In this document: piece by piece, positions 30,342-64,000 of the stretch
How positions within the stretch are numbered: the first letter of the stretch is position 1
Layout of the letters: each line of letters opens with the position of its first letter
NCBI GenBank assembly: GCA_036768485.1
Contig: JAVLUZ010000543.1
Coordinates: forward strand, 372,001 to 436,000
DNA length: 64,000 nucleotides
Direction: 5' to 3'
DNA from: Mermis nigrescens
Taxonomy: Eukaryota > Nematoda > Enoplea > Mermithida > Mermithidae
Program-made: the position numbers and the translations under genes
Notes under the pieces: model-generated
Told to the model about the DNA's origin: nothing
Databases searched by the model: none
The model's input: the letters and a program-made list of their open reading frames with translations, nothing else

Positions 30342-30559
30342 ATTTATCAGTCTCCTCCATCACTCTAGCAATGCAGCATATTACAAATTACCGAATGTAA
30401 ACTTACCATCTTAAGCCTTAAAACCAAACGTATGATGTTATATCATGCCATAGTGTATTTACGCACTTGTAATATCCACGCATTATTACTATGAAATTTT
30501 TATCATTTTATTTTATTATACATATTCCAAAAACTGCAAGTCTCGGAAGTGTAAAGTAC

Positions 30560-30700
30560 CTGATATTCGTGCACCCAGTTTACAACGTTAAAGTGACATA
30601 TCGGTCGAATATCCTCGGGCAACATGGACGGATCAGGCCATTCAAAATTCCTGTCTTGAACAGGCACTATATTTCGGCGGGCCGCCAAAGCCGTACTTAT
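30560..30700 (-). CDS. Sarm1: Sarm1 TIR exon (C-terminal half), copy B
   Basis: Same exon as 16637-16777: 47 codons, acceptor TCATAG, donor CAG|GTACTT, phase 0-0, protein identical. The two differences (CCT for CCC, TCC for TCA) are synonymous. It has to splice across the Gypsy-1 element and copy A to reach the C-terminal exon. Confidence 0.85.
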
Positions 30701-31941
30701 CTATGAAAAAATTCAAAAGTTCACAAAAATAAATCAATACATTAGGGGTTGTACTAAATAAATAAATAAATCAATAATCAGATAAATATATAAATATATA
30801 AAAAAGAAATGATTAAATAAACAAACAAATAAACGAACAAATGAATAACTTGCATGTTGCGATAAAAGGATAAATAAATAAAGGAAGAAACACAGACATA
30901 CGTTTGTAAATAAATAAATAAATAAATAAGAAAATATATAAATATAAAGAAATAAACGCATAATACATAGATAAACAAAAAAATTATTTGAAAGTTAAAA
31001 TAAGTAAATAAATAGGTTTAAAGTTGCATGAAAATATAGGCATTAAGAAAATTAAGTAATCTAATTTCCCTTCATAGACAATATATACAGAAGCGCTCAA
31101 ATTTCACTTAGATTTGAAGAACATGTCAAATTATTTCGGCGCTTCGCGCCTTATCATTAAATTGTTTGTCGATTGAATAAATTGATGGCCTAATGACCCA
31201 GGACTATTTCATTTCAGTATGAAATATAGAAATTTTTTGAAACTTGCCCTCACGATTGTATAGAGCTTATCGAGATACGCTCAAAATTGCATTATTTTTT
31301 TCCTATCTCCTAATGGTTCTCGAGATATTTGACCTCAAAATTAATTAACAAAGATAAAATAAAATCCTGGGTATGCGGCCTGCATAAACATCGATTCTTT
31401 AATTTTGTAATAAATTTTGGACCACTATTCAAAATGCATAAGAACAGAGAATGAAAGCTTCCGTCCAGTAGAACGAACGAGCAGCAAAAAAAATAAAGAC
31501 CAAAGTAGGCGTTCGAAAATTAAAAATTATTAAAATTACTATAGATTTACTTTTCTCCGAACTATGGTGATTTTTAAAATTACTATAGTTCGGAGAAAAA
31601 GCGTACATTTTTATTTTTTTAAAAACTAACTTTTTATTACGTAAGCAAAGTTGATAAAACTTTCAACAAATTACCCGATATACATCCTTAACCTTGTGCT
31701 GAGAGTTAATCGGCATACAGTACATATAGCTGATACTATAGTGCAAATTCAAACGTGTTCCTTAACCTAGATTTGAAACACCACATTTTGTCTAGATAAA
31801 GCTCAGTATGGTACAAATTAATGTAATAAATGTCAGAATTTGTTTGGGTTACTCAAGAACGTTGGTGGTACATAGACGTATTTAAATGAAAACACTATTA
31901 AGATGGCGCTGAAAGCAGAATTTCGGTTTTAGGGTGTTCAC

Positions 31942-32176
31942 CACACCTGGGCGTGGGGGAGGAGTTTAGGAGTATGCACACCCCCTTTAGAAACCAAAAA
32001 TACCCCCAGATTTAAATTTTTGAAAATTTTTCTCGTTTTTTTGCAATTTTTTCATGCCAACGGATAGTGCTGGATGAGAAACGTTGAAAAATCGTGTTTT
32101 TTCGTCATACCACCATTTTTAAGGCCATTTTCGACCTTTGAAAAATCTTGCACCTCCAGGGTGCCGCCCACCGATG
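31942..32176. mobile_element. hAT-like MITE, family A (copy B side)
   Basis: Counterpart of 18778-19038 with the same GTGTTCAC duplication (31934-31941, 32177-32184). Small internal deletions distinguish the two. Confidence 0.85.
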
Positions 32177-33285
32177 GTGTTCACTGATCTCAGTGCCAAT
32201 GTTGTCTCAATATCGCACATTTCTCAAGGGAAAAATGAGACCAGGTTTTAAAGCACGCTGTGACGTACTTTTATTTAGAGTGCATAAATATTGATTAAGA
32301 GGCAAAAATAATTTCAAGCAGGTTTTGGCATGAATTTCGTACAGTCACTGATTTTATTAAAGTATCACACTTTGCTGCGCAAATTTTGAAGACAACAATT
32401 CGTGCAAGGATGAGTGTGAACTTTCAAAGGCTCAAATTTCTTGATTCAAAATTACTACATAATATTCAGAGAACAACTAAGGTATGAAATACAACTTATT
32501 AAAGGTGATAGTACAACTTCCTCATCAGAGTATCGGCACTGCAAGTAGGTGGGCAGCACCGAAATTCTGAGGGGAGGGGTTAAAAAATTTCTGGGGGGGA
32601 GTGAAAAAATTGTAAAGGTCAGAAAATGGTGTTAAAAGTGGTCGTATGGCGAAAAAGCACCATTTTTCGACGTTTCGTTGAGCACCATCAAATAGCTTTT
32701 AAAAAATCGCTAAAAAAGCGAAAAATTCCCAAAATTTGAATTCTGAAGGGGGGTATTTTGATTTCTGGGGGTATTTCAACTTCTGGGGGTGCATACCACC
32801 CCAAACCCCCGACGCCCACGTAAGAGTGTGACATGCATTGTACAAATGGAAAATTTATAGAAGTAAATAGTGGTTGAGTTCGGTTAATAAGGCGCCAAGC
32901 AACTACCACCAAGCGATTTACTGTAATTTTTTGCTAGAATATTCAGGGATAGTTGTGCCATAAGCTGGCTAGAAAGTTTTTACGATCTTTCAAATTTCGT
33001 AGAGTTTCGACTAAAAAATGTACTCTTTTTTCCGAACATTTTGTATATTAATCATGTATGTATGTATTTAGTCGTAGTCATGGTAGGCAGTCCATCTAGG
33101 AGAAGGACAACTCTGATTTCAAAACCTGCCTACCATGGCTCATAGCCATGGTAGGCAGTCCATCTAGGAGAAGGACAACTCTAATTTCAAAACCGACCGC
33201 TGCCTAGTGGTCTGAGGTGCTTGCACCATAGGCTGGGTTACACTTGCTTAAAACAAGTGGTTATCGTTAGGAAGGGCATCCGGGG

Positions 33286-34309
33286 GCCGGTTTCAATACA
33301 GCGACTTAAGTCTGAAATCAGACTTAAGTTCAAAATTAGAACTTAAGTCCAAACTTAGCGGTTTCAATAAGAATTTTAAGTTCGGAGTTAAAGTCCGAAC
33401 TTAAGTCCGAACTTAAGATTAAGCCGGTTTCATTAAAATTAAGTCCGAACTTAAGTTCCGACTTAAGTTGCAAAATATTTAAGACAGCACGGAGCAGTCT
33501 TAAGTCAGTTAAGTATTGCACAATTCTACAGTAGCTGGCCCTCTCTTTTTAGAATCTAAATTATTAAATTCTGCTTCAAGTAATTCTCAATTGTCGCTAG
33601 ATAAGCAGAGCTCCTTCAGTTTCTCAATTTCTTTTGTCGACTAATTAGATGATCGTTTTTTGTTCTTCATGCTTTTTAACAGTGCAACAAGGACAACGGG
33701 GCAAATAAATATGTATAATCGCTTAGATGAATGACTACGTTGATTGAGAGTGAGCAAGAGGCCTTATTGGACTTGGGACCAGACATGCACGTAGGGGGAG
33801 GGTTTGGGGGTCATGTGACCCTCTAGAATGAAAAAAATTGAAAATTAAGTGGTGAAAAGCAGACAAAAATGAAGGCCAAAAACGGATGAAAATTGAAAAT
33901 TTTCTTTATAAGTACTTCAAATTGACTAGAAACTGTGTAATAATGCAGTCTGAACACTATTTTCGCTTAAACCAGTTTTTGAAGTCATTTTGGCCTGAAA
34001 AAAGATCCATTTTTCACTTCTCCCCCAAACTGGCTAACCCCCCTAGATCGGCCATGCTATTTATCTATGCTTTGTAACCAACGTACCCTCCTCACAAGTC
34101 TGTACTTGCCCTGTACTCCTCCGACGGGCAGCAGGTGAGCTCGATTTTCGCCAAAAACTTAAGTTCCAACTTAAGTTCCAACTTAGGTTCTAACTTGACG
34201 AGTTCGGACTTAATTTTTTATTGAAACCGACTTAAGTTCGGACTTATCCTAGTTCGTACTTTAGGACTTAAGTTCGGTCTTAAGCTTATCATATTGAAAC
34301 CGGACCCGG
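33286..34309. mobile_element. TIR element nested in the LINE 5' region
   Basis: Left end GGCCGGTTTCAATACAG, right end reverse-complements to GTCCGGTTTCAATATG. Both subterminal regions are packed with ACTTAAGT-type palindromic repeats. The LINE reads continuously (GGAAGGGCATCCGG to CCGGATGTAGAAAACC) if it is removed. The exact ends are ambiguous because the target is CCGG-like. Confidence 0.65.
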
Positions 34310-35193
34310 ATGTAGAAAACCTGCTCCAAAAATTCAATGCTATGTCGAAAAGTAATATGGCCCCTAGTCCCCGGCATATCTTAAATGGTAAAGGGGTGCG
34401 AAGAATCTCCGGGTTTCAAATATGTAGAGTTGCTTCAATAAACATTAGAACAATGCCTGGAAGAAGTAGAGAAATAATAGATATACTGGTTCGTCGAAAA
34501 ATCAACATATGCTGTGTACAGGAAACCAGGTGGAAAGGATCGTCGTGTAAATTTATTGGCGATGGTAAAGAGAAGTACAAATTTTACTGGTCAGGTGAAG
34601 CCTCTGGAGAGGCTGGTGTTGGAATACTAGTCAAAACGGACAGGGTCGATGATGTCGTTGAAGTGAAACGAATCAACTCAAGAATAATGTGGCTCAATAT
34701 CAAGACCAATGACGAAATACTAACAGTGGTCTCAGTATACGCCCCTCAACAAGGGAAACAAGGGAGAGCAGACAAAGAAAAGGAATTTTTCTAAAACACG
34801 CTCACTGATGCAGTCAGAGACTTGTCATTAAATGATAAACTGAACATCTGTGGAGATTTAAACGGCCGTGTAGGAAATAGTGCCGAGGGTTATGAACAAA
34901 ACCACGGTGGTTTTGGATACGGGGAAAGAAAGAGTGCAGGGGAAGAAATTCTGAACTTTGCTGAAAGCCTGCAACTACACGTCCTGAACACGTATTTTAA
35001 GAAACCAAATCAACACCTCATAACGTACAAGAGCGGAGCCTACGAAGGTCAGGTCGATTATATGCTAGCTGGATACAAAATGAAATCCAGATGCAAAAAT
35101 GTCAAGGCAGTACCCGGTGAAGAATACATACCGCAACACCGTGTTCTAATCGCTGACTTTTTGTTGCCAAATTGTGCCATAAAGACCGTTTAA
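34294..35193 (+). pseudogene. LINE endonuclease domain (broken)
   Basis: APE-type endonuclease: ASINIRTMPGRSREIIDIL, CCVQETRWKG, VVSVYAPQ, LNICGDLNGRVG and PQHRVLIADF are typical motifs in order. An in-frame TAA at 34792-34794 divides it. The reading frame is otherwise the same on both sides. The next part (about 35172 on) is frame-shifted. Confidence 0.8.
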
Positions 35194-35340
35194 AAAAATG
35201 TAGCCCGAAAATCAAGTCGTGGAAGCTAGCTGACAGCAGCACTCAGGAAAAATTTGAAAGATTAATAGCTAAACGACTGGAACCAAACGAGTGCTGGTCG
35301 CATTTTCGCGACACACTACTCGACACAGCACAAGAAGTCT

Positions 35341-36560
35341 GTGGAACATCAAAAGGAAGTCACCAAAAACGTTTCAGAGAAACATGGTGGTTCAGTGAAA
35401 AAGTCAGAACACACTACAAAGAAAGATGCTTACCGGAGATGGCAAAAAAGCCAATGTGCTGTTGATAAAGAAGTGTACAAAATGGCTAAAACTGAAGCCA
35501 AACGTACGGTAGCTGCTGCTAAGAGTGAAGCACTTGAAGAAGTCTTGAGCAGCGGCGGCAGTAATCAAGAAAAACTAAGAAAAGTATATCGGCTAGCTAA
35601 GAACAGAAGGACTTAAAAACAAGATGTTACTGGTGCTATATGTGTAGAAGACGATAATGGACGATTATTAGTATCTACAGAACAGATATGTGATAGATGG
35701 AGGGAATACTACCAAAAACTGTTGAATGAAAGCAATGGAAAAGTTGAAGTAGACGATTGTACAATGGTAGAAGGCCCAGTTGAAGAAATAACGGAAAACG
35801 AAGTGAAAGAAGCCATGAAATCTTTCAAGAAACGGAAGTCACCTGGGCCAACAGGTCTATCAGTAGATGTCATAAAGGCAGCTGGACGACCTGCATTGCT
35901 TGCCCTACTTCGTATCTTCCAACAATTGTGGAAAACTGAAGAAATCCCAGACGATTTCACTAAAAGCATGACAATACCGTTGTATAAAGGAAAAGGCGAC
36001 CCTCTGAACTGTACATCCTATCGAGGAATCCGCCTACTTGAGCACGGCATTAAAATTTTCGAAAAAATTCTGGAATTAAGGCTGCGGAAACTCATACGAA
36101 TTAGTAGAATACAAATGGATTTATGCGCCATAGGTCAACAACTGATCCAATTTTTATATTAAGACAATTACAAGAGAAGTATGTTGAGAAACACCAACTG
36201 CTGCATCACCTGTTCGTAGATCTCGAAAAAGCCTTCAACAGAATACCAAGAGAAACGATCATATGGGCTTTGAGAAGACAGCTAATCCCATAAAAGCTAG
36301 TAAGACTGATAATGACAACATATCGGTCATCAAGAACAGTTGCCAAGTCAAAGGCTGGCCACAGTGAAGAGATCGAATCGACATAACCATAGGCGTACAT
36401 CAAGGCTCGGTACTTAGTCCCTTACTATTCATAACGGTAATGGAAGAAGCAACCAAACAAATATACACTGAAACACCCATAAAACTACTATACGCTGACG
36501 ACCTTGTGCTTACGGCTAAAAATCAAGATGAGCTAAAGAGCGTTTCAAATTATGGAATGC
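35341..36560 (+). pseudogene. LINE reverse transcriptase domain (broken)
   Basis: Linker, then RT: NEVKEAMKSFKKRKSPGPTG, SMTIPLYKGKGDPLNCTSYR, FVDLEKAFNRIPRE, GVHQGSVLSPLLF and LLYADDLVL (catalytic ADD near 36495). At least three frame changes or stops occur between 35600 and 36500, so no complete protein is possible. Confidence 0.8.
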
Positions 36561-36567
36561 AAGTCTA

Positions 36568-36837
36568 ATGAAAAAAGGCATGATCGTCAATCCAAGCAAA
36601 ACCAAGTATATGGTCTCCAGTGAGAAAGGACCAACTTTGAAGTCTGGAAGATTCCCATGTGCCGTTTGCTCAAAAGGTGTTGGAAATAATTCTGTCCTTT
36701 GTACCATGTGCAAGCGGTGGTGCCACAAAAAATGCTCAGGAATACGTCAAAGTTTGAACGCAGTAAAAGACAACTTCAAATGTACAGCATGCACAATTGG
36801 CGTAGTTTCAGAAATCGTGGAGCCAAACATGCTATAA
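36568..36837 (+). pseudogene. LINE zinc-finger region after RT
   Basis: CAVCSKGVGNNSVLCTMCKR followed by WCHKKCSGI and CTAC gives a PHD/RING-like Cys/His pattern found after RT in some APE-type LINEs. The preceding MIVNPSKTKYMV is the usual RT C-terminal motif. An in-frame stop ends it at 36835-36837. Confidence 0.7.
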
Positions 36838-37029
36838 ATCGATGAAATGACGGTAGAAAAGGTCAATACTTTCACATACCTAGGCGACACAGTACAAGCC
36901 AATGGTGGTGCTGAAGCGAGCGTTAGATGCAGAATCCAGGCCACATGGAATAAATGGAAAGTCGTTAGCTGGTCTACTGATGCAAAAGAGTATACCATTA
37001 CCAACCCGCAGTCAACTGTACCAGCGCTG

Positions 37030-38209
37030 ATTACATGAAAATTAATCGCCAACAATTAATCGCGGACAATTAATCGCCAACAGTTAATCGCAGAACAGTT
37101 AATCGTGCACACAATTAATCGTGGGTCTATTTAATCGTAAATAATCAAGCGTCATCAAAAGCATGTCAAAAATAAATACCTGTATAAAAAATATAAAAAG
37201 GTGTGTAAAAAGGAAAGTAGTAGATGTGAAAGCTTAGCTTATTATCATACATGCACAGCATAGGAATTCTGGGGGGTGAAATTTTAGGGTGTCTTTTTGG
37301 GCCTAAAAATAGTGGGTACGCGTAAAAAATATCGTTTTTCAGCGTTTCTTACGATGCTCTATCTTTCTGGAGCATAACACAAGGAAATTCGAAAAAAACA
37401 AAAAAAGTCAAATAAATTGAACAAAATGTAGTTAAAACATGAGTTTGTGGCGCGAAGCGCCAAAAATTTGACACTTTTGAACAAATATATAGCTAGAACG
37501 CTTAAATAGCACCTTTTCTGCGAATTTTCAGAAAATTTCTGGAAACTTTGAAAAAATCGCGAATTGTGGGGGAGTTGAAAATTTTTCTAGTGGAGGGGTG
37601 AAACCCCCAAATAAATGGAACAAAATATAGTCAAAACATAAAAATCTGGCGCGAAGCATCGAGAATTTTACACCTTCGAGAAAATTGATTGCTAAAAACG
37701 CGTCAAAATCATCACTCCACAGTTTGGAAATTTTTCAAGGCGCTACGATTAGAACAAAGTAAAAACGAAATGATGATTGAACAGTTTTTGGCCGGCCAAC
37801 AGCCTCCCATTGGAAGGAAAAAATACAAAGATTGTACAGCTCGTATTCAAAGAATCGTGAATAGCTATAGAGAGCTGGATATTATTGATTATTTGCGTGG
37901 CTTGTCACACAGTTCAATTTTTAGACAAATTCGGAATATTTTGCAACGACAGTTTTTGTTTCAAGTCGGTCATCACTGATGTACACTCCCAAATCCTTAA
38001 TAGATCCTTCAGAAACAGCTATATCTTGAAAACCCAGTTTGTACTTGTTTCTAGGATTACCATAGCCCGAATACAACGTTGCACATTTAAGTGCAATAGG
38101 CGATTACATGTCCCGGCGATTAATTGTTAACGCGATTAATTGTTCAGCGATTAATTGTCCACGATTAATTGTGCGCGATTAAATGTTGGCGATTAATTGT
38201 CTGCATACC
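37030..38209. mobile_element. MULE-like element with tandem-repeat termini, nested in LINE
   Basis: A 10-bp duplication ACCAGCGCTG flanks it (37020-37029, 38210-38219). Both termini are arrays of a ~14-bp unit (CAATTAATCGCCAA and variants), inverted with respect to each other: five to six units on the left (37037-37140) and six on the right (38109-38200). A 9-10-bp target duplication and the transposase remnant at 37689-37979 agree with a Mutator-like origin. Confidence 0.75.
37689..37979 (+). pseudogene. MULE transposase C-terminal remnant
   Basis: WKFFKALRLEQSKNEMMIEQ, then FLAGQQPPIGRKKYKD and RIQRIVNSYRELDIIDYLRG, match the pattern at the C-terminus of insect MULE transposases (EQ...iEq.iAGQ.PP...Y...RI..iv..Y...YLRG.aH). 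The catalytic DDE part is absent, so the element needs a partner in trans. Confidence 0.6.
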
Positions 38210-38580
38210 ACCAGCGCTGTGTTCGACCAGTCCTTCTGTATGGATCAGAAACGTGGGCAATGACAAATGGCATAGAAAACGCTTTAAACAGAACTGAAAT
38301 GAAATTGCTTCGTTGGATGCTTAGTTTGCGCCTGGCCGACAAAATTAGCAACGAAGAAATTCTTAGAAGACTTACAATGGACAATCTCCAGAATACACTG
38401 CGGACTTGCAGATTGCGCTGGCTAGAACATGTCGAGAGAAGCCAGGACGGTAATGTCATATCAGCCAAAAACCTGGTGGCGCCTGGAAAACTGCCAAGAG
38501 GCCGGCCGAAGACAACGTGGATGAAGACAATTAAAAAAGGACTTGGCTGCCAAAAATCCACGTATGGAAGACACTCATGA
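38206..38580 (+). pseudogene. LINE C-terminal region
   Basis: CVRPVLLYGSETWAMTNGIE, MKLLRWMLSLRLADKISNEE and LRWLEHVERSQDGN, then a GRPKTTWMKTI motif: the standard C-terminal segment of this LINE type. It resumes after the MULE insertion and ends with a stop 80 bp before the 3' microsatellite. Confidence 0.85.
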
Positions 38581-39133: not shown

Positions 39134-39377
39134 CACACCTGGGCGTGGGGGGTTTGAGGGGTTATGCAACCCCCCAAGAAAACAAAATACCCCAACCCCC
39201 AGAATTCAATTTTTGAATTTTTTGTTTTTTCGCAATTTTTTGATGCCAATGGATTGTGCTCGATGAGGAACGTGAAAAAATGGTGTTTTTTCGCCATACC
39301 ACCATTTTTAAGGCCATTTTTTGATCTTTGAAAAATCTTACACCCCCCCTCCCAAATTTTGGTGCTGCCCACCTATG
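39134..39377. mobile_element. hAT-like MITE, family A (copy B side)
   Basis: Counterpart of 20434-20673, same ends. Confidence 0.7.
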
Positions 39378-44244: not shown

Positions 44245-44504
44245 CACACATGGGCGTGGGGGGTCTGGGGGGTCTGGACCCCCCAGAAACCAAAAGACCC
44301 CCCCCCAGAAATCAAAAGACCCCCCAGAATTCAATTTTTGAAAATTTTTTTCGTTTTTTTCGCAATTTTTTGATGCCAATGGATAGTGCTTGATGAGAAA
44401 CGTCGAAAAATGGTGTTTTTATCGCCATACCACCATTTTTAAGGCCATTTTTTGACCTTCAAAAAATCTTGGACCCCCCAGAATTTTCTTGCTGCCCACG
44501 TATG
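44245..44504. mobile_element. hAT-like MITE, family A
   Basis: CACACATGGGCGTGGGG to CTTGCTGCCCACGTATG, with a perfect 8-bp duplication GTCTTTTG (44237-44244, 44505-44512). Confidence 0.88.
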
Positions 44505-44785
44505 GTCTTTTGTAACACATGCGTTTTTTTGCTGTATTTGTGCTATTTGGGTATCACTCAAAAAATGCAAAATTAAAAAACCTTAGGTCCATCGGCCATT
44601 TTTCACCTGACCCTCGGCCGAGGCCGAGGATTTCTCAAAAAAGACCGAGGATTACCGAGGCCGAGGCCTCGTCCGATTCCTTCTCGCGACGTATTATCTA
44701 ACATTAATCTTACAATAATGGTGTGTCAACTTTCATGGCGAGCACTGCATTTGTTGATTTTTTAATTATTTATTTTTATTATTAC

Positions 44786-52176: not shown

Positions 52177-53244
52177 TGTAAATGTAGGCGAGTTCCATCT
52201 GGGTCTACAGAACCGTCACAGATACGAACCGCACTAACATCCACCCTCGAGATTTACCTAGGTACGTAGGTACTTAAGTCTACGCTTAGTGCTGGCACCG
52301 ATCGCGCGGCACTGGATGGCTTTCGATCTTTGGACCCTTACAGACCTTACGGCTTCGATCCCCTCAGCCCTAATATTGCTGGCTGCTTCTGGTCGGGTGA
52401 TCTCAGCAGCTACGCCCTAAGACCTAAGGCTACCTACCTAGTCTCGGAATTTGCCGCGGAGGTCAGTTGACCTATCTCAAGCTCAAGTTGTTTATTTAAC
52501 TTATTTTCAATCAGTGCCTTGAACGAAATGTTTTTGGTTCCTAATTTGTGTAGCACGCTGAACAATGAAAACAACAACAACGAGCTCTATGCCGATCAAT
52601 CATCTCTAAAGATTAAATAATATTTTTGATCAATTTTTGGCTTGAGAAATAAATTGTGCTTTCCAAATAAAATAGACTATCATACGAAATTTACCTATCA
52701 GTCCACTATGATAGGAAGAAGTCCTCGACGAAGGGATGTAGCCGACCTTACCCTCGGTATAGCCAGAAACCACTGGGTAGGTTTTTTCTATGTATTTATT
52801 CGACGAAGAAATCACGGCCTATGGCCGGACAAAAGCAAAAGAAAAACAAAAACGTACGGAATATGTCGACGTACGACTGGCTAACGAAAAGCAAAAAACG
52901 CCAGACTACTCTACAACGTTAAGTACACTGGCCTCAAGGGCCGTTACAGTAAAATAAAACAATGATCAATTTAACGTAATACTGAAATGACTTTTATCTC
53001 AGATCGAATGTTCTCGATTACACAAGCGGTATGCATGAAACAATTACTATTATCATACACTTAACTCTACGATACCGGACAAGTATCTAATTGTTTTTTA
53101 TTGTTGAAAATTTGGGGAAATAATGGGAAGACCGAAGGCATAGCCCACAGTGCACCGTCATAGACAGCTACTAGTATTGGCTATGTAATGGCCATCGCGA
53201 ACTGCTAAGGCAGGTTCGCCTACCGTGTAACTCTTGCAGTTACA
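52177..53244 (-). repeat. Gypsy-2 3' LTR
   Basis: Minus strand TGTAACTGCAAGAGTTACAC ... CTACATTTACA. The first 20 bases are themselves a small inverted repeat. Related to the solo LTR at 7051-9044. Preceded by a polypurine tract on the minus strand. Confidence 0.7.
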
Positions 53245-53251
53245 CTCCCCC
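53245..53251 (-). promoter_or_regulatory. Gypsy-2 polypurine tract
   Basis: GGGGGAG on the minus strand, directly before the LTR's TGTAAC. Confidence 0.7.
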
Positions 53252-54043
<792 letters not shown>

Positions 54044-55562
54044 TTAATAACAATCCTGATAATTGGCCTTTGAGCCATACGGTTTTCCACGACGTCGTTG
54101 ATGTTGGAAATATTCCTGATCTGATTCCAGTTCGCAACGTGTATTCGAACGCTCATGATACTGATATGGCGATTGCCTACGCCTGTATATGTGTTGGTGT
54201 AAGCGTCGGTGTGGATCGACTGGTCGATTGTCGTCCTCAAAATCATCGTCGTCCTCGTAGTCGTCCACGTAACGACGCGGTATAGATTGCACCGGAGTAA
54301 ATAATTGCTCCGGCGTGAAGCCATACGATTGTTCATGTGAAGGTTCGCGTGGACGCTGTTGTTGTTGAGTAACAGGCCACGGTTTCGGCAAAAGTGGACC
54401 CGGTCGAGGTTGTGGCTGATAACCCCCGGTGGCTGGTTGGCTTTGTTCCAACGGAGAGCGATACGATTGATCCCATTGCTGTCGTTGACGGGATTGTGAC
54501 CAGTCCCGATGAGTTCCGCGGTTTGACTGTGGTTGGCGGCGATGTTCGTAAGGCTGCTGCTGTCGCGAGCGCGATAGATGACCAGCATCAGCCTGTGAAT
54601 ACGCCTCAAAACGCTCACGCGATTCCGTAAAATGCTGTTGTTGCCGCGGTTGGGTTTGCGGTCTTGTATATTGCTGTATATGCGCTTTTACTTGCGTTTG
54701 CTGTTGTGCTTGCGATTGTGAACGGTGATGTGTTTCAGCATAGCATTGCCGGGACAATTGCGGTTCTTGCCGCCTTGATCCCTTTGGGCCTAAACGCGCT
54801 TTTAATTTAGCTGCAACTTCAGCTTGAACGAGTCTTCTGACTCGTTGCTTTTCCAAATTTTTCAGTCGACGCAAAGCGTGTTCGGACTTGGTGTCATAAA
54901 ATCGATTCAATTTCGCCTTATGTTCGTCTTCTGGCATACGACAAACCTCGGAAGCTTCAGTAAGAGAACCGGCGGCGCATAATTTCGTCACACATTTCCG
55001 TAGCCAAATTCTCACGATCGCGTTTCTCGATCATCATGCGTGTTCTACGCATTTCAATTTGTGCTTCCAAAGAAAGGTCGACTTCTGGCAATTCAAGGCT
55101 TGCTGTGGATCCGCTAGGGTCCTGCGAGGATGCCTGTTGCCTTTGTCTACGAATTTTTTCTAATTCGCCTTGAATTCGATGTTTTAGGAAAAAGACCGAT
55201 TTTTGTTGACCTCTAAAACGATCGAATTGAGCCGGAACTTCAAGCGGCGGATCGGTTGCTAGCCGAATTTGTCAAATCATGTTGTGTAAAACTTGTTGAC
55301 TTTTGATTCGTGCCGTTAAATCCGGGAATTCCGGAAAAGCCTCACTTGGCGAAGGTGTATAAGATTCACCAAGGAACGCTACGCGCAACATGCAACGTAA
55401 CTGCTCCACCATGCGCCAGCCTATTCTGGGATTTCCGTAGGCGTACGCAAAGAAGTGGAACTTCCTGTCCAGGAATTCCAAAAGCGCTGTAGCGCGCATG
55501 ACGTCTATGGAAGAAAAGATTGTCATGTGTCGATACTCCGAATCATATAATGCTTGAAATTC
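54044..55562 (-). pseudogene. Gypsy-2 ORF3, C-terminal part (interrupted)
   Basis: Continues ORF3 in the same frame after TGA codons at 55563-55565 and 55272-55274, then changes frame near 54990-55010. The pieces read as one protein. First is a globular-looking segment (SSIDVMRATALLEFLDRKFH, NPRIGWRMVEQLRCMLRVAF). A basic coiled coil follows (LRRLKNLEKQRVRRLVQAEV), then a long Gln/Arg/Ser-rich disordered tail ending near QDCY. Function unknown. The two TGAs could be CGA-to-TGA changes. Confidence 0.7.
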
Positions 55563-58190
55563 TCAGAAAGTATCAAAAATATCGACCATCTGGCGTGCCG
55601 ATATTAAGATGGGTGCCATATGATCTGGCGCTGGAGACATCCTGTGTGGATATAACTCCGGGCGAACCTGATGTGCAACACCATCAGACACTTCAGTCGG
55701 TGCATCAAGGTGCGGGTGCACCACCAAATACTCTAACGGCACTTTGTACAACATCATTCCCGTTGTAATAAAGAAGCGTATGCGCACGAAGTATTGGTCG
55801 GGATAAAACAATCGCTTAAACACACTCAATTCGCTGATAAATTGAGGTGCGGGTGGACGATCCACATCAGCCAAAGGCTGTGCAATCAAGGGCCACACTA
55901 ATGGACGCGACTGGGAATCAGTTGAAGTTGCGTGCTGCAAATGGATTGCATACACTCGGTCGAAGTACACTTGTGCAGCTTCAACCAGCTGATCATATAG
56001 ACGCGTTCCTTCAACTTCACCGAAACAGTCATGTAACTCGTGCAATACAACTGGTGCAACAGTGCACGGAGGTTCTCGCGTCATCTTTCCCATCATGGTG
56101 AAAAAATGCTGAATGTAGCGCGAGCGGCTTTGCACTCTCGCGCTTTCATTCGCGGCCATACGTTCGCGAATAGCTTGCATCATTGGGGGTATGGCGACTT
56201 CCCTATTTGATGACTGACTTTGAATTGCCTGTGGGTGAATAGTCGCCACAGTACTCGACACACCCATTATGGCCATAGGAGCCATAAAACGAGCATCTGG
56301 TGCCGACACGCCTTGTGGCACGGAATGAGTCGCGACTTGCGTATACAATGCTACTTGTGGTACTTCATGCGTGGGTAAAGTTTGTTGCCGTACCGGCGGA
56401 AAACCTATAATCTCTGTCATGATTATATCGGGCTCAGAATCACGCTCTACCCAACCCGGCTGTGAAGTTGGTAAAGGTGCGAGCGAACTGATGCCCAAGG
56501 GCGCTTGTTGGCCCGCCGCAAGCGATTGCGAGACAATCGGTTGCGAAACGGCAACAGCCCCTTTTCTGGCCAATGCCGCGCGTGTAGTGCGCAGTGGCAA
56601 CAAATTAGCTTGTCTTTCCGCCTCAGTGTCGGATAACGCCATGACTAAACGCTTAGGAGATAAATCATCGTCTTCAGTGGAGATCGGTTCTACATCAACC
56701 ATAGGCGAATCAAATGGAATGTCCGTTTGCGAAGAAAACGCAGATGCTGGTGTACTCGAACTGGTTGGTTTAGATTTTGGTTCGGTATCAGGTGCATGAG
56801 CCGGGCCCAAAACTGAGTTGGCAACGGCTTGCGAACCCTGAACTTGTAGGTCAGGATTGTTGAAAACATTAGTGTGAGCCAACGCTTCTGTTACTGAGGC
56901 AACGGTGGTGGCTGCTGCTATGGCCGCTAGAAGTTGCGGAACCGGGCCATAGAAGTCCTCAACTCTAATTAATTCTTTGCCATTCGAGTCAACTTCGACT
57001 TCAGCTTCAGCAGCTGTGCTGGTCGACTGTCCTTGCGGAGGTTTACTAGTCGACAATGGTATACGCACTCTGGCTTTCGGGCCAGTGACCTTAATGTGCA
57101 ATTCATCGCCTACAAACGAGACCGACATAGGCTTTCTATCGTCAGTAATGCGATTATTTTGCGATGTCCATTCTATCAATATAAAAACATCAATAGTTAT
57201 GAGGGCGTCCATCACTGAATAATGCTGCATGTCCCGAGTTAAAGGTAAGCTCCACGCCTGTCCAAAGTTATCAGGCGCGTTCGGGTCAAGATACATGTCA
57301 AATAGGAACTCAGCCAAGCGCTTCAATGTGTGTGAACGCGCTGTGATGCGAAAACGACGAGTAAATTCTCTCGCTAATGGCTGAATATTGATAAAATTAG
57401 CAATGAACGGATCCTTCCAGTGCAGTTGATTGCGAATTTCTGCATCTGGGATTGCCAAAATTTCCTCAAAAGTTGGACCGTATATGTGAAAATACGCAAG
57501 TCGATCTTGCGTAGGATCGTAACAAACCATATATACGTTTGGCAAACGTGTTTCGAGCAACTGGTGAAGCCCGAACGGAGGTTGCGGGAACTTCGCCAGG
57601 TCCCAGCAGAACACATGACCGTTCGCGCTCGCAACTTGGACGTAGCGTACGAATGGGCCATGGAGGTCCTGGTAGGTGGGACATAATTGCTGAAAACGCA
57701 AGTCCCAGGTCTTATAATGCCTGCCTTTCCTGTCATTAACAAATTCGGAATCGTAGCCTAAAAATAGTGTGCCATTAGTCAAATTTGATGGTTGAATTAA
57801 CGCCAAAATGGCGGCAAACGACTTCTGGTCATCGGAGACTATGACCGTAGGCATAGGCCTGTTCCTTGGTACGCGAGGGGTTACCAAAGGAAATCTACAA
57901 AATCTATTCTTCCACCAGAGCTGCTGATCGTTTATACGCTTGGTATGATTTTTAACTTTATGTGCTACTTTGTGCTTAACCATTCTAGCAGTGAATGCTT
58001 GTAAACCGCTAACACGACTATCATCGTTTTGTGGCAGCGGGTCTGGTACAACCAAACCCCGCTCCAATGCCATACTGGTCAACGCCGAACGAAACTCATC
58101 TAAGGACGCGGGATCATGCCCTTCGAATTTGCATCGGCGACCAGCCGCCTCCAGCAATGCCTCTTTGCTTGGGGTGCCTTCTGCAGCCAT
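55563..58190 (-). CDS. Gypsy-2 ORF3, N-terminal part with DEDDy 3'-5' exonuclease domain (875 aa)
   Basis: Starts 90 bp inside the end of the integrase frame. Residues ~110-345 match the RNase D/WRN-type DnaQ-like fold. Motif I is LFLGYDSEF (Asp147, Glu149). A YVQVAS.NGHVFCWDL strand pair follows, and motif II lies in TQDRLAYF (Asp229). Then come RSHTLKRLAEFLFDMYLDP and WSLPLTRDMQHYSVMDALIT, giving motif III YxxxD (Tyr324, Asp328). All catalytic positions of the DEDDy subclass are present, so 3'-5' nuclease activity is plausible. Residues ~370-700 are Ser/Thr/Pro-rich and look disordered; ~700-875 look globular but unrecognised. Sampled lines are about half G+C, clearly above gag and pol. An exonuclease is not a standard component of Ty3/Gypsy elements. 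Confidence 0.85.
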   Translation of the reverse strand: MAAEGTPSKEALLEAAGRRCKFEGHDPASLDEFRSALTSMALERGLVVPDPLPQNDDSRVSGLQAFTARMVKHKVAHKVKNHTKRINDQQLWWKNRFCRFPLVTPRVPRNRPMPTVIVSDDQKSFAAILALIQPSNLTNGTLFLGYDSEFVNDRKGRHYKTWDLRFQQLCPTYQDLHGPFVRYVQVASANGHVFCWDLAKFPQPPFGLHQLLETRLPNVYMVCYDPTQDRLAYFHIYGPTFEEILAIPDAEIRNQLHWKDPFIANFINIQPLAREFTRRFRITARSHTLKRLAEFLFDMYLDPNAPDNFGQAWSLPLTRDMQHYSVMDALITIDVFILIEWTSQNNRITDDRKPMSVSFVGDELHIKVTGPKARVRIPLSTSKPPQGQSTSTAAEAEVEVDSNGKELIRVEDFYGPVPQLLAAIAAATTVASVTEALAHTNVFNNPDLQVQGSQAVANSVLGPAHAPDTEPKSKPTSSSTPASAFSSQTDIPFDSPMVDVEPISTEDDDLSPKRLVMALSDTEAERQANLLPLRTTRAALARKGAVAVSQPIVSQSLAAGQQAPLGISSLAPLPTSQPGWVERDSEPDIIMTEIIGFPPVRQQTLPTHEVPQVALYTQVATHSVPQGVSAPDARFMAPMAIMGVSSTVATIHPQAIQSQSSNREVAIPPMMQAIRERMAANESARVQSRSRYIQHFFTMMGKMTREPPCTVAPVVLHELHDCFGEVEGTRLYDQLVEAAQVYFDRVYAIHLQHATSTDSQSRPLVWPLIAQPLADVDRPPAPQFISELSVFKRLFYPDQYFVRIRFFITTGMMLYKVPLEYLVVHPHLDAPTEVSDGVAHQVRPELYPHRMSPAPDHMAPILISARQMVDIFDTF

Positions 58191-58966
58191 GGGTCTGCAA
58201 AAGGAAAAATATTAGATAATGGTACGGCATGTGCTGTTTTAGAGCCATTTAATAAACGTATAGGCGCGCAGTCCTTAGCTTTTTGTTCCCTGCCCGGTAA
58301 ATCCTCAAAACTTATGACAACTGCCGGGGCAAGAGGGCGATGTGTTAATTTAACCAACACAAAATCGCCAGGGACGTACGCATGTTTTTCCACAATTAAG
58401 TCAGAATAAGGTAGTTTAGGCTCAGGCAGAAGTCTATTCCTATGAACGTGATGAACGATAAGAGGGTTATAGACATATGCGATTTTCGCAGTTTCAGGCG
58501 TAGGTAAGTCAATAATTCGGTATGGACCCACACGCTTGGGTGATAATTTACCTATTTCAGGTTGAATGACTGAGGTATTATTAAGATAGACTATATCCGA
58601 AAGAGAAAAATTTGTTTGTGTTACGGACTTGTCATATTGTGATTTCTGCTGCTTACGCGCTTGCGTTAAATTTTGAGATGCGATTTCATGCAAGTCTTGT
58701 AAAGTCAGCTTTAAATCAATGACATATTTTTCCGCAACGGAAGGTAAATTCGGATTTATCACAAAGTCATTTATTAGTAAAGTGTCGAGAGGAAATGCTG
58801 GTTCGCGACCATAAAGCATTTCGAAAGGAGATATATTAGTCGATGATTGCGTAGTCGCGCGGTATGCAAATAATGCAAAAGGTAAAAATTGCTCCCAATC
58901 ATACTGGGAACGCGCACTCAGCTTCGACAAACCATCAATCAAAGTTCGATTATAACGTTCCACCAA
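58100..58966 (-). CDS. Gypsy-2 integrase, C-terminal part with PWWP-like tail
   Basis: Begins within the catalytic core at the Glu motif (LVERYNRTLIDGL; the first Met is not a true start). It continues through SPFEMLYGREPAFP and the GPY-type KRVGPYRIIDLP module. Residues ~193-255 (GDFVLVKLTHRPLAPAVVIS, then APIRLLNGSKTAHAVPLSNI, FPF) resemble a PWWP domain, as in Gypsy-1. The stop is at 58100-58102, overlapping the start of ORF3 by 90 bp in a different frame. Confidence 0.85.
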   Translation of the reverse strand: MVERYNRTLIDGLSKLSARSQYDWEQFLPFALFAYRATTQSSTNISPFEMLYGREPAFPLDTLLINDFVINPNLPSVAEKYVIDLKLTLQDLHEIASQNLTQARKQQKSQYDKSVTQTNFSLSDIVYLNNTSVIQPEIGKLSPKRVGPYRIIDLPTPETAKIAYVYNPLIVHHVHRNRLLPEPKLPYSDLIVEKHAYVPGDFVLVKLTHRPLAPAVVISFEDLPGREQKAKDCAPIRLLNGSKTAHAVPLSNIFPFADPWLQKAPQAKRHCWRRLVADANSKGMIPRP

Positions 58967-59013
58967 CCCATCACACTGGGGGTGATATGGGGTTGTAAAT
59001 ATTTTTTGAACGT

Positions 59014-59609
59014 TTAATAATTTACAGACTTCCGAAATAAGGGTAGCCCCTGATCTGTTAAAAATTTCTTGGGGACTCCATAACGTGGTATAATTTCTCG
59101 TAATAATAAATTTGCGATAGTTGTTGCTTTGATATCAGAAACAGCAAAAGCTTCCACGTATTTTGTGAAATAATCCATAAAAACTACAATTTGGTCATTT
59201 CCGGAGGGGATTGCGGCATATGCAAACAATCGCACGCAATGAGTTCAAAGGGTGCGGATACTTCGATTGGTTGCAGCGGAACGGATGCGGAATTTAATGC
59301 GACCTTACGTTGTAAGCACACATCACAATTCCGACACCACGCGATCACATCATTTTCCATGCGCGGCCACCAATAACGCATTTGAATGGCGGGCAAGATT
59401 TTGCGCAATGAAAAATGAGCTCCGAAAATAGAGTCATGAAATTCCGTTAATATGAAGCGACGCAAAGATTTGGGTATGACTATTTGATGAACAACAGTTG
59501 GTGAGCGCTTAGGTTGGAAACGACGAAAAAGTACATCGTTTATGAGAAAAAATTCGTCACGATATTTTTTCGTTGTTAAGTCGTCCAATGCAATGCGAAT
59601 TTTATGCAA
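59014..59609 (-). pseudogene. Gypsy-2 integrase, zinc finger and first part of core (frame-broken)
   Basis: 59609-59184 holds the HHCC finger (FHDSIFGAHFSLRK ... CRNCDVCLQRK) and the first catalytic Asp (ELIACDCLHMP). After a break near 59215 in a C-run the frame continues with VVFMDYFTKYVEAF and FLTDQG (second Asp). A second break near 59045 in a G-run leads to the frame at 58966. Also about 59635 separates it from RNase H. Each break looks like loss of one base. Confidence 0.8.
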
Positions 59610-59628
59610 TTCGTCATCTGCACGTTGC

Positions 59629-62172
59629 TCAGCAAGTAAACGCTGCAGGTGTTAGCATTTCAGCTTTTTCGGCATCGGTAAGTAACAAGCGTTCGCGAAA
59701 TGTAGATGGTTTAGAATTAGTAGGATCGGTTTGCGCAGTAGGAACATTATTTTGCGCATTTGGATGATTAATTGGTGCAGTAGGCGCGTTATTGCGCGAT
59801 CGGTCAGGTGGAACCGATTCATCATCTGACTCAGAATCTTCTGATTCTAAATTTGCGATGTTAACGATATTTTTGCGCTCGACTTTATATTTTCGTTCTC
59901 CATGATCATATTTGGGATGACGTGAGAGAAGATCAGCTGCGCAATTATATGCACCAGGAACGTAAACGATATCATATTCATATTCCTGTAATTTGAGACC
60001 CCAACGGCGTAATCGACTCGATGGGTCTCTTACGTTTACTAGCCAGGTTAACGCTTGATGATCAGTTTCGACAATGAATTTTTTACCATAAAGATAATGT
60101 CGATAATGCTTGATGGCCCACACTACCACTAACGCTTCTTTTTCCGAAGTAGCATAATTACATTCAGCAGAATTTAGCACGCAACTAGCATAGCTAAGAA
60201 TAAAACGATTTTTTGATGGTAAGTGTTTTTGTGTCAAAATAGCACCTAACGCATAGTTACTTGCGTCAGTTGTTAAAATAAATTGGTGCTCATTGTCAAA
60301 CTTTGGTAATTGCAAAATAGGTGGGGACGTAAATGCTTTCTTCAGAAGCTCAAAGGCGGTTTGGTGTTCAGCCTTCCAGCAAAATTCGACATCTTTACGC
60401 AGAAGATGGAATAGAGGTTTAGCAATTTTAGCGAGATCTTTAACGAATTTCTTCAACCATTGGACTAAACCAAGGAATTTCTGCAAGGATTTTACGGTTT
60501 TTGGTACGGGAAACGAGATTAAATCCGCGACTTTGGACATGTCAGGAGCGAAGCCCATTGCACTTATGTTATGGCCAAGATATTTTACCTCTGCATGCGC
60601 AAGATGGCACTTATCAGGCTTTACACGCAAGTTTGCCTTTTTAAGAGCAATAAAGACATTTTCGAGATCTTTTAAATGTTCTTTGAAAGTGCGTGAAAAG
60701 ATAATTATGTCATCAATGTAAATGAGACAAGATTTCCAATTTAGACCTGCGAGCACGAGCCCCATTAGTCTTTGAAAATCTGCGGGCGCATTCTTTAACC
60801 CAAAAGGTAAAACTTCAAATTCATAATGACCAACAGGACATATAAATGCTGTTTTTTCGCGAGATTTATTATCGAGTGGGATTTGCCAGTATCCAGATTT
60901 CAAATCTAGTGTGCTAAAATATGCAGCACTGCCTAAAGTATCAAAATAATCGTCTAGTTGCGGAAGAGGATAAACTTGTGTTTTAGTAACGTCATTTAAC
61001 TGTCGATAATCGACGACTGGCTTTAGGGAACCGTCCTTTTTTCCAATGAGAAATAATGGACTTGCCCATGGGCTAGTTGTAGGTCGAATAATTTTATCCG
61101 CAAGCATTTCATTTATAATTTTCTGCATAGATTCCCTTCTAGAATGTTCGACACGATAAGTTTTTCCCACAACGGGTGGATTATCCCCTGTATCGATATG
61201 ATGTTTCATCAAGGGGGTACAACCGAGAGGTTCGTTTTTTAGTGCAAAAATTGAGTCGTATTTTAGACATAATTCACGGATTTGTTGCTGTTGTCTAGAA
61301 TCAACGGCGGAGCCGTTTAAAGCTTTATTTATTGATGCAAAAAGTTCTGGTGTTCTGTCATCAAAAGATGAGACATGTGACACTACTTCTGCATCAGAGG
61401 TTAAAGAACCTATTATGTCACCAGAGTCAATGCGAATTGGCGCTTTAGAGATGTTACAGACGCGAATAGGTATTAAGGGTTGCGTAGCATCGACTATAGA
61501 TGGAGCAACAAAAAGCGAAGTTTTTTCCATAAAATCAGGATTTGGTTCGAATAGTGCGAAATCAAAATTGCAAGAACCATGACTTATATAGCCAGGTGTA
61601 ATTAATTCATGCCTAGGTTGTATTATAACAGGCTCGGGCAACGAAACATGCACACACACAACACCAGAGGTGGTTGCGTTGGGTTTTGTGCGAAATTGCA
61701 ATCTTTCATGAGATGAGAGTAAATTAAACTTTATGCCGTTTATAAAAGCACAACGCTCAATAGGATTAACCCACATGAGTGCGGATTCGCAAAAATCATA
61801 TCCTAAAAGCATGTCTTCCGGCAAATGATCAATTATAGCAACTGAGGTAGAAATAGATTGTTCCGCGATGGTTAGAGTCATATTTACTTTATAGCGAATG
61901 ACTGCAGTAATTTCGCCTACACCATGCACAACTTGCGAAACTTGTTTAGGTGGTAAATTAAAACCAAGATGCAAGAATGCAGATGTGGTCATCATGGTGA
62001 CCTGTGAACCTGTATCTATGAGAGCAGGTACATCAACGCCATGAACTTTGACGAGAATAGTGGGTAAATTAGTTCCAGCGTGGCTTACAATAGGAATATT
62101 AGGATCTAACGTCTTCGAAGAAGGTAAATTAATTTTTTCATAAGTTGCTAGACGACGTTGTAAACGTTCGTA
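59629..62172 (-). CDS. Gypsy-2 Pol: protease, reverse transcriptase, RNase H
   Basis: The frame is open upstream of the first Met (61995) and includes the protease active site ALIDTGSQVTMM near 62015, so Met61995 cannot be the functional start. RT has KKDGSLKPVVDYRQLN, LDLKSGYWQIPL, FGLKNAPADFQRLM and the catalytic LIYIDDIII near 60720. RNase H has TTDASNYALGAIL, EKEALVVVWAI and ETDHQALTWL. Relative to gag, pol is in the +1 frame in the overlap around 62140-62235. Whether this is a programmed shift or another lost base cannot be told here. Confidence 0.92.
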   Translation of the reverse strand, partial: YERLQRRLATYEKINLPSSKTLDPNIPIVSHAGTNLPTILVKVHGVDVPALIDTGSQVTMMTTSAFLHLGFNLPPKQVSQVVHGVGEITAVIRYKVNMTLTIAEQSISTSVAIIDHLPEDMLLGYDFCESALMWVNPIERCAFINGIKFNLLSSHERLQFRTKPNATTSGVVCVHVSLPEPVIIQPRHELITPGYISHGSCNFDFALFEPNPDFMEKTSLFVAPSIVDATQPLIPIRVCNISKAPIRIDSGDIIGSLTSDAEVVSHVSSFDDRTPELFASINKALNGSAVDSRQQQQIRELCLKYDSIFALKNEPLGCTPLMKHHIDTGDNPPVVGKTYRVEHSRRESMQKIINEMLADKIIRPTTSPWASPLFLIGKKDGSLKPVVDYRQLNDVTKTQVYPLPQLDDYFDTLGSAAYFSTLDLKSGYWQIPLDNKSREKTAFICPVGHYEFEVLPFGLKNAPADFQRLMGLVLAGLNWKSCLIYIDDIIIFSRTFKEHLKDLENVFIALKKANLRVKPDKCHLAHAEVKYLGHNISAMGFAPDMSKVADLISFPVPKTVKSLQKFLGLVQWLKKFVKDLAKIAKPLFHLLRKDVEFCWKAEHQTAFELLKKAFTSPPILQLPKFDNEHQFILTTDASNYALGAILTQKHLPSKNRFILSYASCVLNSAECNYATSEKEALVVVWAIKHYRHYLYGKKFIVETDHQALTWLVNVRDPSSRLRRWGLKLQEYEYDIVYVPGAYNCAADLLSRHPKYDHGERKYKVERKNIVNIANLESEDSESDDESVPPDRSRNNAPTAPINHPNAQNNVPTAQTDPTNSKPSTFRERLLLTDAEKAEMLTPAAFTC

Positions 62173-63981
62173 CTCTTCGAGAAATTCTTGCGACGCGAAT
62201 AGATTGGGACGCAGCGCTAGATTCTGGCCCTTTTGCAGTAACCGTGTTTACATCATGAGGAGATGTAAGGGTTGGCTGCGGTGAGGGCGCATTCATGGTG
62301 GGCTGGTTATCTGCGGTATATGTAACATAAGGGCGATTAAAATTATTGTCGTTGCGATAGTTCGAATTATAGTATGTTCCACGGTGTTCATTTGGAAATT
62401 GCACAAAAGGTGTATTTTGGCGCGATTGATTATTATAACGATTATCATAACGCGAATTTTGATAATTAGCACGCGAATTTTGGTAATAATCATTACGATT
62501 TTGCCGAAAATTCGATTGTGATTGCTTTGATTCAAAGCGATTATCATTATTCGCATAGTTGGATGAACGATGTTGACTAGAGTTACGATATCGTGATTGA
62601 GATCGCTGCCTATTTTGCGAATTCGAACACGATGGCGAACGATTTCGTCGCAAAAAGAACGCGATTGGCTGCGATTGCGAGCCATAGAATTGGTATTGCG
62701 ATCAGCTTGGTTATTATAATTAGGATTATTAGACGTTTCTTGCCTTTGACGCGTGAAACATTCCTCATAAATGTGACCTATGTGCTTGCAAAAGGTACAA
62801 TATTTACGAGAAGAATTTTCTGGTTTCTCAGCACGCGATGAGCGATGAAACGTTCTATTACGTGAGCGATTTGAATCATTTTGGTTAGATGCGCGAGGAG
62901 TATCTTTAGGTACTACGCTGCCTACGGGAGCAGCTGTTACCAATACATAAGGCGTTACTGCCTTTTTATCCTCAAATTTTTTGTTAGCAAATTCAGCACT
63001 TAGCGCATTATCCAAAAATTCAGCTAATGATGCTCTAGGTTTTTTGTGATATGCCTCTTTCGAAATGTGTGGTAATAAACCTTGTTTTAATTGATGTCGC
63101 ATTAAATTATTAAAATGAGGCGAGTCAACTTCAAGATAGGGATCCGATTTAATTAACTCTCGGCGAAGCGAGAGATAATAAGCTTTAACCGATTCGTTAG
63201 GCTGCTGTTTGTGTGACAAAAAACGATTAAAGAGCGCACCGGTGTCCATCGGACAAAATTCGGTTATTAGCGCTTGCTTCATTTTCGAATAAGATTGTTG
63301 TATGTCAGCAGGTAACGAATGGTATAAACGCAAAACATAAGGATCGAGAAATCCAGTAGCGAATTTTAAACGATCAGCTTTGTCAATATCATAGGTATTG
63401 GCAAGCGATTCAAATTCTGCAAAATATGCTTTCATATCCGATTTATCGCCATCAAAAAATTTTTTATTTGCAATTGCAAATTGCATCTGCTGTAAAAATG
63501 GTCCGCGATTCAAGGAATCAGCAAGACGCGAGTCACCACGCGAGCTTCCAGATGAAGAACCTGAACTATGGCGGTGACGTCGTCTGCGCGATCGACTTTT
63601 GCGACGCGAGCGACGACTGCGCGGGCGATCATAGCTACTAGATGAGCTGTTGTCAGAGAATTTGACATGTTTTTTCCTACTAGACGATTCAGATAAGGGA
63701 GCAGATTCGTTTTGCAGATGTGCAGATTCATGATTAATGCCAGATAAGTTTATCTCAACAGGTTGCATTTCGATATTAGAAGAATGCAAAATAGGATTAT
63801 TAGGTGGTATTTCTACATTTATAGGATTAGGTACATAGCTATTAGGTAAATTTTCGCCTTGAGGTGGAAAATATTGCAGCGGAGGAGGATTCAATTGCTG
63901 CTGCAAGTTCGTAGTAGAAGAACTAGGTACGAAAGAAGGCGCATTACGATTTAAAGACAGCGAAGGTCGAGATTGCGACAT
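62138..63981 (-). CDS. Gypsy-2 Gag
   Basis: Starts at or upstream of Met63981 (the frame is open to the window edge). Pro/Asn-rich N-terminus, then an Arg/Ser block (RSRRSRRKSRSRRRRHRH), the retrotransposon gag core (MKAYFAEFESLANTYDIDKA ... FLDPYVLRLYHSLPADIQQS) and one CCHC knuckle CTFCKHIGHIYEEC. Near 62660 a T-run appears one base short. The true C-terminus is the Asn/Ser/Arg/Gln-rich frame to 62138, whereas the unbroken frame to 62293 turns into an implausible Ile-rich stretch. Confidence 0.85.
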
Positions 63982-64000
63982 CTGCGAAATCGATACCGAC

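Follow-up and report, generated by a model that had tools for sequence, protein, structure and literature searches.

The question raised by this locus is whether a Ty3/Gypsy retrotransposon of the nematode Mermis nigrescens carries a nuclease gene of its own in the position of env. The stretch of DNA analysed (64,000 nucleotides, hereafter referred to as the window) contains such an element, in which the integrase is followed by a third open reading frame, ORF3. The original prediction assigned to ORF3 a DEDDy-type 3'-5' exonuclease domain, regarded this domain call as beyond speculation, and considered the presence of such an enzyme in an element of this type to be new. Below we ask whether ORF3 encodes the predicted domain, whether it belongs to the element, and what its product might do.

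The element and its third reading frame

The element spans positions 52177-66558 (~14.4 kb) and continues past the end of the window (Table 1). Its paired LTRs have the TG...CA ends of a Ty3/Gypsy LTR retrotransposon and differ from each other by 11 transitions, 1 transversion and 1 gap; both ends of the element are flanked by the short target site duplication (TSD) CAGA, a polypurine tract precedes the 3' LTR, and pol exhibits the protease, reverse transcriptase, RNase H, integrase order characteristic of Ty3/Gypsy elements. Since the LTR pair, the TSD and the polypurine tract enclose ORF3, the latter lies inside one single element. The LTR included in the original prediction was thus recovered together with a partner located beyond the window.

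The open frame of ORF3 comprises 882 codons (55563-58211, minus strand), with the first ATG at 58190, and has ~90 nt in common with the last integrase frame; both this overlap and the env position had been correctly predicted. Past the TGA of the window copy the sequence of ORF3 runs on, initially in the same frame and then in a shifted one, to ~54044. A frame break divides the integrase of this copy, between 59184 and 59134.

Table 1. Features of the element carrying ORF3 (positions are those of the window).
Feature	Position	Strand	Remarks
3' LTR (TGTAAC...TTACA), then TSD CAGA	52177..53244	-	1068 bp
Polypurine tract catgggggag	53245..53254	-	before 3' LTR
ORF3 C-terminal remnant	54044..55562	-	interrupted by stops and one frame shift; R/Q-rich near its end, judging by the composition of a copy that is open
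ORF3 of the window copy	55563..58190	-	875 codons from first ATG, ended by in-frame TGA
Predicted DEDDy 3'-5' exonuclease domain of ORF3	57138..57866	-	sister-family profile, WRN match, dN/dS 0.08
Motif III, Y324-x3-D328	57207..57221	-	30/30 loci; 11/11 rows of alignment A2
Motif II Asp (D229)	57504..57506	-	30/30 loci (window copy included); 11/11 rows of A2
Motif I, D147-x-E149	57744..57752	-	D and E in 30/30 loci; D-x-E in 9/11 rows of A2
Splice-acceptor-like TTTTTCCTTTTGCAG	58195..58209	-	ends 4 nt before ORF3 ATG; same 15 bases in 30/30 loci
Integrase, second piece	58100..59134	-	covers the end of the core plus an SH3-like and PWWP-like C terminus, none of which reaches the cut-off in this copy; shares sequence with ORF3
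Integrase, first piece	59184..59651	-	H2C2 zinc-binding domain, E=2.3e-20
pol: aspartic protease, reverse transcriptase, RNase H	59629..62247	-	RVT_1 8.4e-35, RT_RNaseH 1.8e-33, Asp_protease_2 1e-10
gag with CCHC zinc knuckle (by eye)	62293..64000	-	frame extends past the window to ~64827
5' LTR	65492-66558		1067 bp; beyond the window

Evidence for an exonuclease domain in ORF3

Taken as a single sequence, ORF3 gives little indication of its relationships. The match to PF01612 remains below the Pfam cut-off (E=0.12 for the whole protein, 0.04 for the domain only) and is restricted to profile positions 106-165 of 173, i.e. the part around motif III. No sensible match was reported by phmmer against PDB, and no relative by comparisons with a large protein database, in some of which the scored part comprised only the ~8,000 candidates sharing most words. 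Nothing was matched in a scan of viral contigs, in NCBIfam (two proteins) or in PHROGs (four proteins). Folding of the domain from the single sequence yielded a model with a pLDDT of 42.7, and Foldseek found no match at E<=0.001 for this low-confidence model.

The relationship becomes apparent when relatives from the same genome are included. The PF01612 search of the assembly to which the window belongs (524 Mb in 860 contigs) yielded 90 matches, of which 46 exceeded the cut-off, five of them only together with frame neighbours. Three of the 46 (C728) resemble exons belonging to a single host gene, which we take to be Rrp6-like, and many of the remaining matches correspond to ORFs of ~280-550 codons repeated at several sites. 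From the protein set obtained from loci L031-L060 (leaving out L031, L032, L035, L047 and L054) we selected ten representatives, without proteins containing stops (L039, L049) and without near-duplicates, to build a profile of ten other ORF3 families (A1) from which the window ORF itself was excluded. In a set of 2262 sequences A1 confidently identified the window ORF3 (E-value 5.1e-21), while the best of 2000 shuffled sequences obtained 1.1 and the best of 261 other ORFs of the window 2.7.

Among solved structures the best match of A1 was the WRN exonuclease (PDB 2fbt, 2e6l; E-value 4.7e-13), followed by a Mut-7 homologue (2.3e-7), NrnC (2.7e-6) and EXD2 (3.8e-4); Egalitarian was also found among the matches of the ORF3 family profiles. 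WRN is a cellular enzyme, in which the exonuclease is fused to a RecQ helicase. Addition of the window ORF to the alignment (A2, 11 rows) retained the WRN match at 1.2e-12; the printed WRN alignments begin at the strand that follows motif I and reach as far as motif III, leaving motif I itself outside. The hhalign comparison of A2 with RNase D from E. coli, a member of the same superfamily, gave a probability of 78% (E=1.7e-5).

Residues D147, E149, D229, Y324 and D328 of ORF3 (numbered from the ATG) align to the DEDDy active site, and the D-x-E, the motif II Asp and the Y-x3-D are found where the original prediction had placed them. All five residues are intact in all 30 loci of the window's family and in nine of the 11 aligned rows of A2; one of the two remaining rows (L055) is frame-broken. 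The exceptions observed are family L040, with Lys in place of the motif I Glu, and copy L065, with Asn in place of the motif I Asp. Altogether, the profile comparisons and the conserved motifs confirm that ORF3 encodes a DEDDy 3'-5' exonuclease domain, with predicted nuclease activity. The assertion that this call involves no speculation was too optimistic as far as the single sequence is concerned: the identification required relatives, because ORF3 on its own misses the Pfam cut-off and matches none of the solved structures in a sensible way.

Copies, selection and sister families

ORF3 was found in at least 52 scored places (2954 candidates at first look), with 83-96% identity apart from the window copy itself, and the exonuclease domain alone in at least 150 (2768 candidates), 147 of these 150 being free of stop codons; both haplotypes or duplicated contigs may have contributed to these counts, because several places in the ORF3, PF01612 and exonuclease lists have identical scores. 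Copies with an unbroken ORF3, a search for which had been proposed originally, do exist: in 23 of the 52 scored copies the stop-to-stop frame comprises at least 1,390 codons. In L011, an open copy, the exonuclease domain and the following linker are succeeded by a region for which Pfam reported no match, and whose final 350 residues contain much Arg and Gln.

ORF3 and the integrase are consistently found together. In 30 of 30 ORF3 loci (L001, the window copy, to L030) the integrase lies upstream in the same overlapping arrangement. In the reciprocal analysis, in which at least 117 integrase places were scored (3645 candidates), ORF3 was located downstream of 92 of 117 among the matches listed (85 from the exonuclease list and 7 from 19 places picked out of the ORF3 and PF01612 lists), and in 80 of the 85 the spacing between the integrase and the exonuclease is exactly 324 nt. 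Two of the 25 remaining integrase places were sampled and both carry the domain, one of them with a frame break; thus, no copy was shown to be without ORF3 among the 92 of 117 places with listed matches and the two sampled from the other 25. These data support the view, stated in the original prediction, that ORF3 is a gene of the element, with a fixed place behind the integrase in the env position; a nested insertion or a host gene is not supported by the common junction, the spacing, the LTR pair or the integrase-side count.

The copies fall into subfamilies A (L002-L021) and B (L022-L030). The mean dN/dS values between A and B, which are means over pairs of copies that are not independent, amount to 0.08 for the exonuclease domain, 0.15 for the N terminus, 0.18 for the linker and 0.13 for the next part, with 0.13 over the 875 ORF3 codons examined. 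The corresponding value for the integrase is 0.06 (26 of 30 loci, those without an indel in this region; the high-dN filter set here removed no pair). Judging from these codon comparisons, the ORF3 exonuclease domain is clearly under strong purifying selection, with nearly the same constraint as the integrase. The silent divergence between A and B differs about twofold between the two genes (0.48 in ORF3 vs 0.22 in the integrase; Fisher tests for four chosen A-B pairs, p 5e-5 to 4e-3). Within A the values are alike (ORF3 0.069, integrase 0.074), while within B ORF3 is also higher (0.189 vs 0.116), and nucleotide identity falls near the start of ORF3. Because its silent divergence between A and B is twice that of the integrase, ORF3 appears to have partly its own history. 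We infer that the break at silent sites reflects an exchange of ORF3 alleles between the subfamilies; alternatively, it could result from a higher silent rate in ORF3.

Related ORFs are associated with other retroelements of this genome. Among 27 PF01612 ORF loci (L032-L060 without L035 and L047; flank up to 1.5 kb) 17 possess a stretch similar to the integrase of the window, and for L036, which is outside these 17, inspection by eye of the upstream piece revealed pol with integrase motifs. Between three lineages the identity of pol, compared over the part from protease to RNase H, amounts to only ~31-40%. Unrooted trees were computed with FastTree from 5 pol sequences and from 10 exonuclease sequences (without the frame-broken L055), and both place the window element beside the L046-type lineage and apart from the L033 type. 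Altogether, these comparisons establish that the window ORF3 belongs to a wider set of predicted DEDDy ORF3 families, distributed over three Gypsy pol lineages of the same genome.

The members of this set share a peculiarity of the domain. The motif I Asp and the Gln of the next strand are separated by 17 residues in E. coli RNase D, in contrast to 38 in ORF3 and in the L040-L053 group and 49 in the L033 group; the spacing is 38 or 49 in nine of ten sister families and 37 in the tenth row, which is frame-broken. The insertion shared after motif I suggests that these exonucleases form one common retroelement branch and were not captured repeatedly from the host, a lead to be read with a cellular sample of one protein.

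Possible roles and published precedents

As to the expression of ORF3, the conservation of the splice-acceptor-like site before its ATG is not independent evidence, because the site lies inside the overlapping integrase coding frame. Among loci of other families an acceptor-like site before the ORF start was recognized by eye in three of 11 (L033, L036 and L046) and was not seen in eight. The model of the nematode SL1 RNA gave no match, a result that does not in itself show absence of this RNA, and a search with the SL1 22-mer allowing up to 2 mismatches returned one place (with 2 mismatches) vs none for the control; trans-splicing of SL1 to ORF3 is therefore without support.

All roles of the ORF3 enzyme considered here are speculative. 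The one that we regard as most likely, though tentatively and with a little under even confidence, is the trimming of 3' ends of the element's RNA or cDNA, between which the data do not distinguish. ORF3 would be translated from a spliced sub-genomic mRNA, as the position of the acceptor-like site suggests, and the enzyme would act on the element's own nucleic acids, removing extra nucleotides from the cDNA ends or processing the 3' ends of the element RNA, which would let reverse transcription or integration finish.

The alternative that ORF3 lies here by chance, as a gene of the host or as a nested element, could draw on its base composition (G+C ~48% vs 39-42% in pol) and on the excess of silent divergence between A and B, but exchange of ORF3 alleles between the subfamilies can explain the latter, and the invariable junction and overlap with the integrase, the nearly constant spacing, the number of places with the domain and the enclosure in one LTR pair with its TSD render this possibility extremely improbable. 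The env position by itself might suggest that ORF3 serves an envelope or another membrane function, the nuclease fold being incidental; we consider this very unlikely, as low dN/dS goes together with conservation of the active-site residues, and neither ORF3 nor its C-terminal part gave a Pfam match to an envelope or fusion domain. We think it probable that the data as a whole are best explained by a gene that resides in an amplified Ty3/Gypsy family, occupies the place of env, and encodes a predicted 3'-5' exonuclease of the DEDDy class (WRN/RNase D/Mut-7) extended by a long C-terminal part.

Two further alternatives concern the function of such a gene. The protein could have evolved from a DEDDy nuclease into a non-catalytic nucleic acid-binding protein that coats or carries the element RNA, just as Maelstrom and EXD1 are described as DEDDy-derived proteins that are no longer catalytic (PMC5408684). 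The loss of an active-site residue in some members (L040 and L065) and the presence of Egalitarian among the profile matches agree with this scenario; nonetheless, the complete active site in every locus of the window's family and in most aligned rows, one exception being frame-broken, makes it rather improbable. It is also conceivable that ORF3 is a counter-silencing factor, which would protect the element by breaking down small RNAs of the host or their 3' ends, or by competing with host trimming of the Mut-7/Nibbler type. Such a function would be compatible with the match of the domain profile to a Mut-7 homologue, with a protein separate from gag-pol whose long C-terminal part ends in an R/Q-rich region, with an mRNA that may be ORF3's own, and with the mut-7-like silencing role raised for rotifers in PMC5408684. 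However, the closest solved structure is that of WRN rather than Mut-7, and the exonuclease domain evolves slowly, with no sign of an arms race in this region, hence we regard counter-silencing as unlikely, although less so than a protein that merely binds nucleic acids. Compared with these alternatives, trimming of the element's own 3' ends remains our preferred, if tentative, reading.

The proposal that an exonuclease in an LTR element is without precedent fails, because Rodriguez, Kenefick and Arkhipova described in 2017 (PMC5408684) DEDDy-type exonuclease ORF3s in the Juno and Vesta LTR retrotransposons of bdelloid rotifers. According to that paper, the DEDDy ORF3s of LTR elements were acquired at least twice, DEDDy ORFs are also present in the Athena elements of bdelloid rotifers, three of four bdelloid lineages encode a dUTPase, DEDD is changed to DEED in the bdelloid ORF3s, and RNA 3'-end processing is proposed for the rotifer ORFs, with a discussion of mut-7-like roles; the bdelloid DEDDy ORFs are also mentioned in two reviews (PMC6431247, PMC5718144). 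As far as the published description allows a comparison (the likeness is one of description, not of sequence), the window element resembles Juno and Vesta in being an LTR retrotransposon with an ORF3 downstream of pol that encodes an RNase D-like DEDDy exonuclease instead of env, and in the occurrence of such ORF3s in more than one pol lineage. It differs from their description in that the pol ORFs scanned in the window, where pol is frame-broken, contain no dUTPase at E<=1, in that D, E, D, D and Y are intact, and in the ~1,390-codon ORF3 with its long C-terminal part, the number of places (at least 150) and the measured purifying selection. The Athena/Terminon Penelope-like elements, as outlined in PMC5408684 and PMC6431247, likewise carry a DEDDy exonuclease ORF on a retroelement, but are described as giant elements at telomeres with a Penelope-like reverse transcriptase, without the LTR/integrase plan of the window element.

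A broader scenario, which we find possible but doubtful, is that the ORF3 exonucleases form a retroelement-specific DEDDy branch, marked by an insertion of 21-32 residues after motif I relative to RNase D, which would have been gained once, spread with or between Gypsy lineages, been swapped as a module between subfamilies, and give the element a step of its own in 3'-end processing or counter-silencing, for which ordinary LTR elements depend on the host.

The exonuclease ORF3 described here thus represents a further real case of an arrangement already described in bdelloid rotifers, to which it adds the high copy number, the three pol lineages, the purifying selection and the shared insertion after motif I. 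A feature reported from bdelloid rotifers is now found in at least 150 scored places of one family as well as in further families belonging to other pol lineages. The low dN/dS argues that the ORF3 protein is needed for the spread of the element, and the many copies constitute an abundant system for testing its role.

A second Gypsy element and other repeats of the window

Besides the exonuclease-bearing element, the window contains a second Gypsy element (see table), whose ORF3 has neither a Pfam nor a PHROG match and does not score significantly against the exonuclease profile built from the ten sister ORF3 families. At the integrase end of this element there is a weak PWWP-like match (E-value 0.0008, below the Pfam cut-off). 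The direct repeats found at its two ends are probably its LTRs. A separate set of direct repeats that likewise surrounds this element, a short dispersed repeat present in several copies in both orientations, and fragments of a LINE-like element, with endonuclease-like and reverse-transcriptase-like frames recognized by eye, are also listed.

Repeats and element features in the window
Feature	Position	Strand	Details
Second Gypsy element	21132-28641	plus	
ORF3 of this element	27079-28641	plus	520 codons
Direct repeat pair	20783-21027 / 30097-30341		245 bp, 98% identical
Separate direct repeat set	16413-17856 / 30342-31773		spacing ~13.9 kb, 94-98% identical
Dispersed repeat	2254-2373, 18838-19042, 20473-20677, 31982-32186, 39171-39375, 44301-44505	both	~120-200 bp
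LINE-like fragments	34225-38580		
Weak PWWP match, integrase of the exonuclease-bearing element	58193-58369		below cut-off (E-value 0.007-0.023 in the window family)

Possible distant relatives of ORF3

At another locus of the genome a fragment (L059:3163-3414) aligns with the end of the window ORF3 (881 residues) along 86 residues, 48% of them identical; it lies next to the ORF3 of another family, in opposite orientation. This similarity hints that more distant ORF3 relatives may exist.

PWWP domains at integrase C-termini

In one group of ORF3-bearing Gypsy families the integrase is closed by a Pfam PWWP domain, identified above the cut-off (E-values from 9e-14 to 3.2e-9) at the integrase C-termini of all eight scanned loci (L040, L043, L044, L046, L053, L055, L056 and L059), which represent about five distinct families. 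The domain was not seen in the two integrase pieces scanned from the L033 group (L033 and L041), and the match in the window family is weak and below the Pfam cut-off. Literature listings revealed no obvious prior report of PWWP on such integrases. A chromatin reader carried by the integrase could steer the insertion of these elements.
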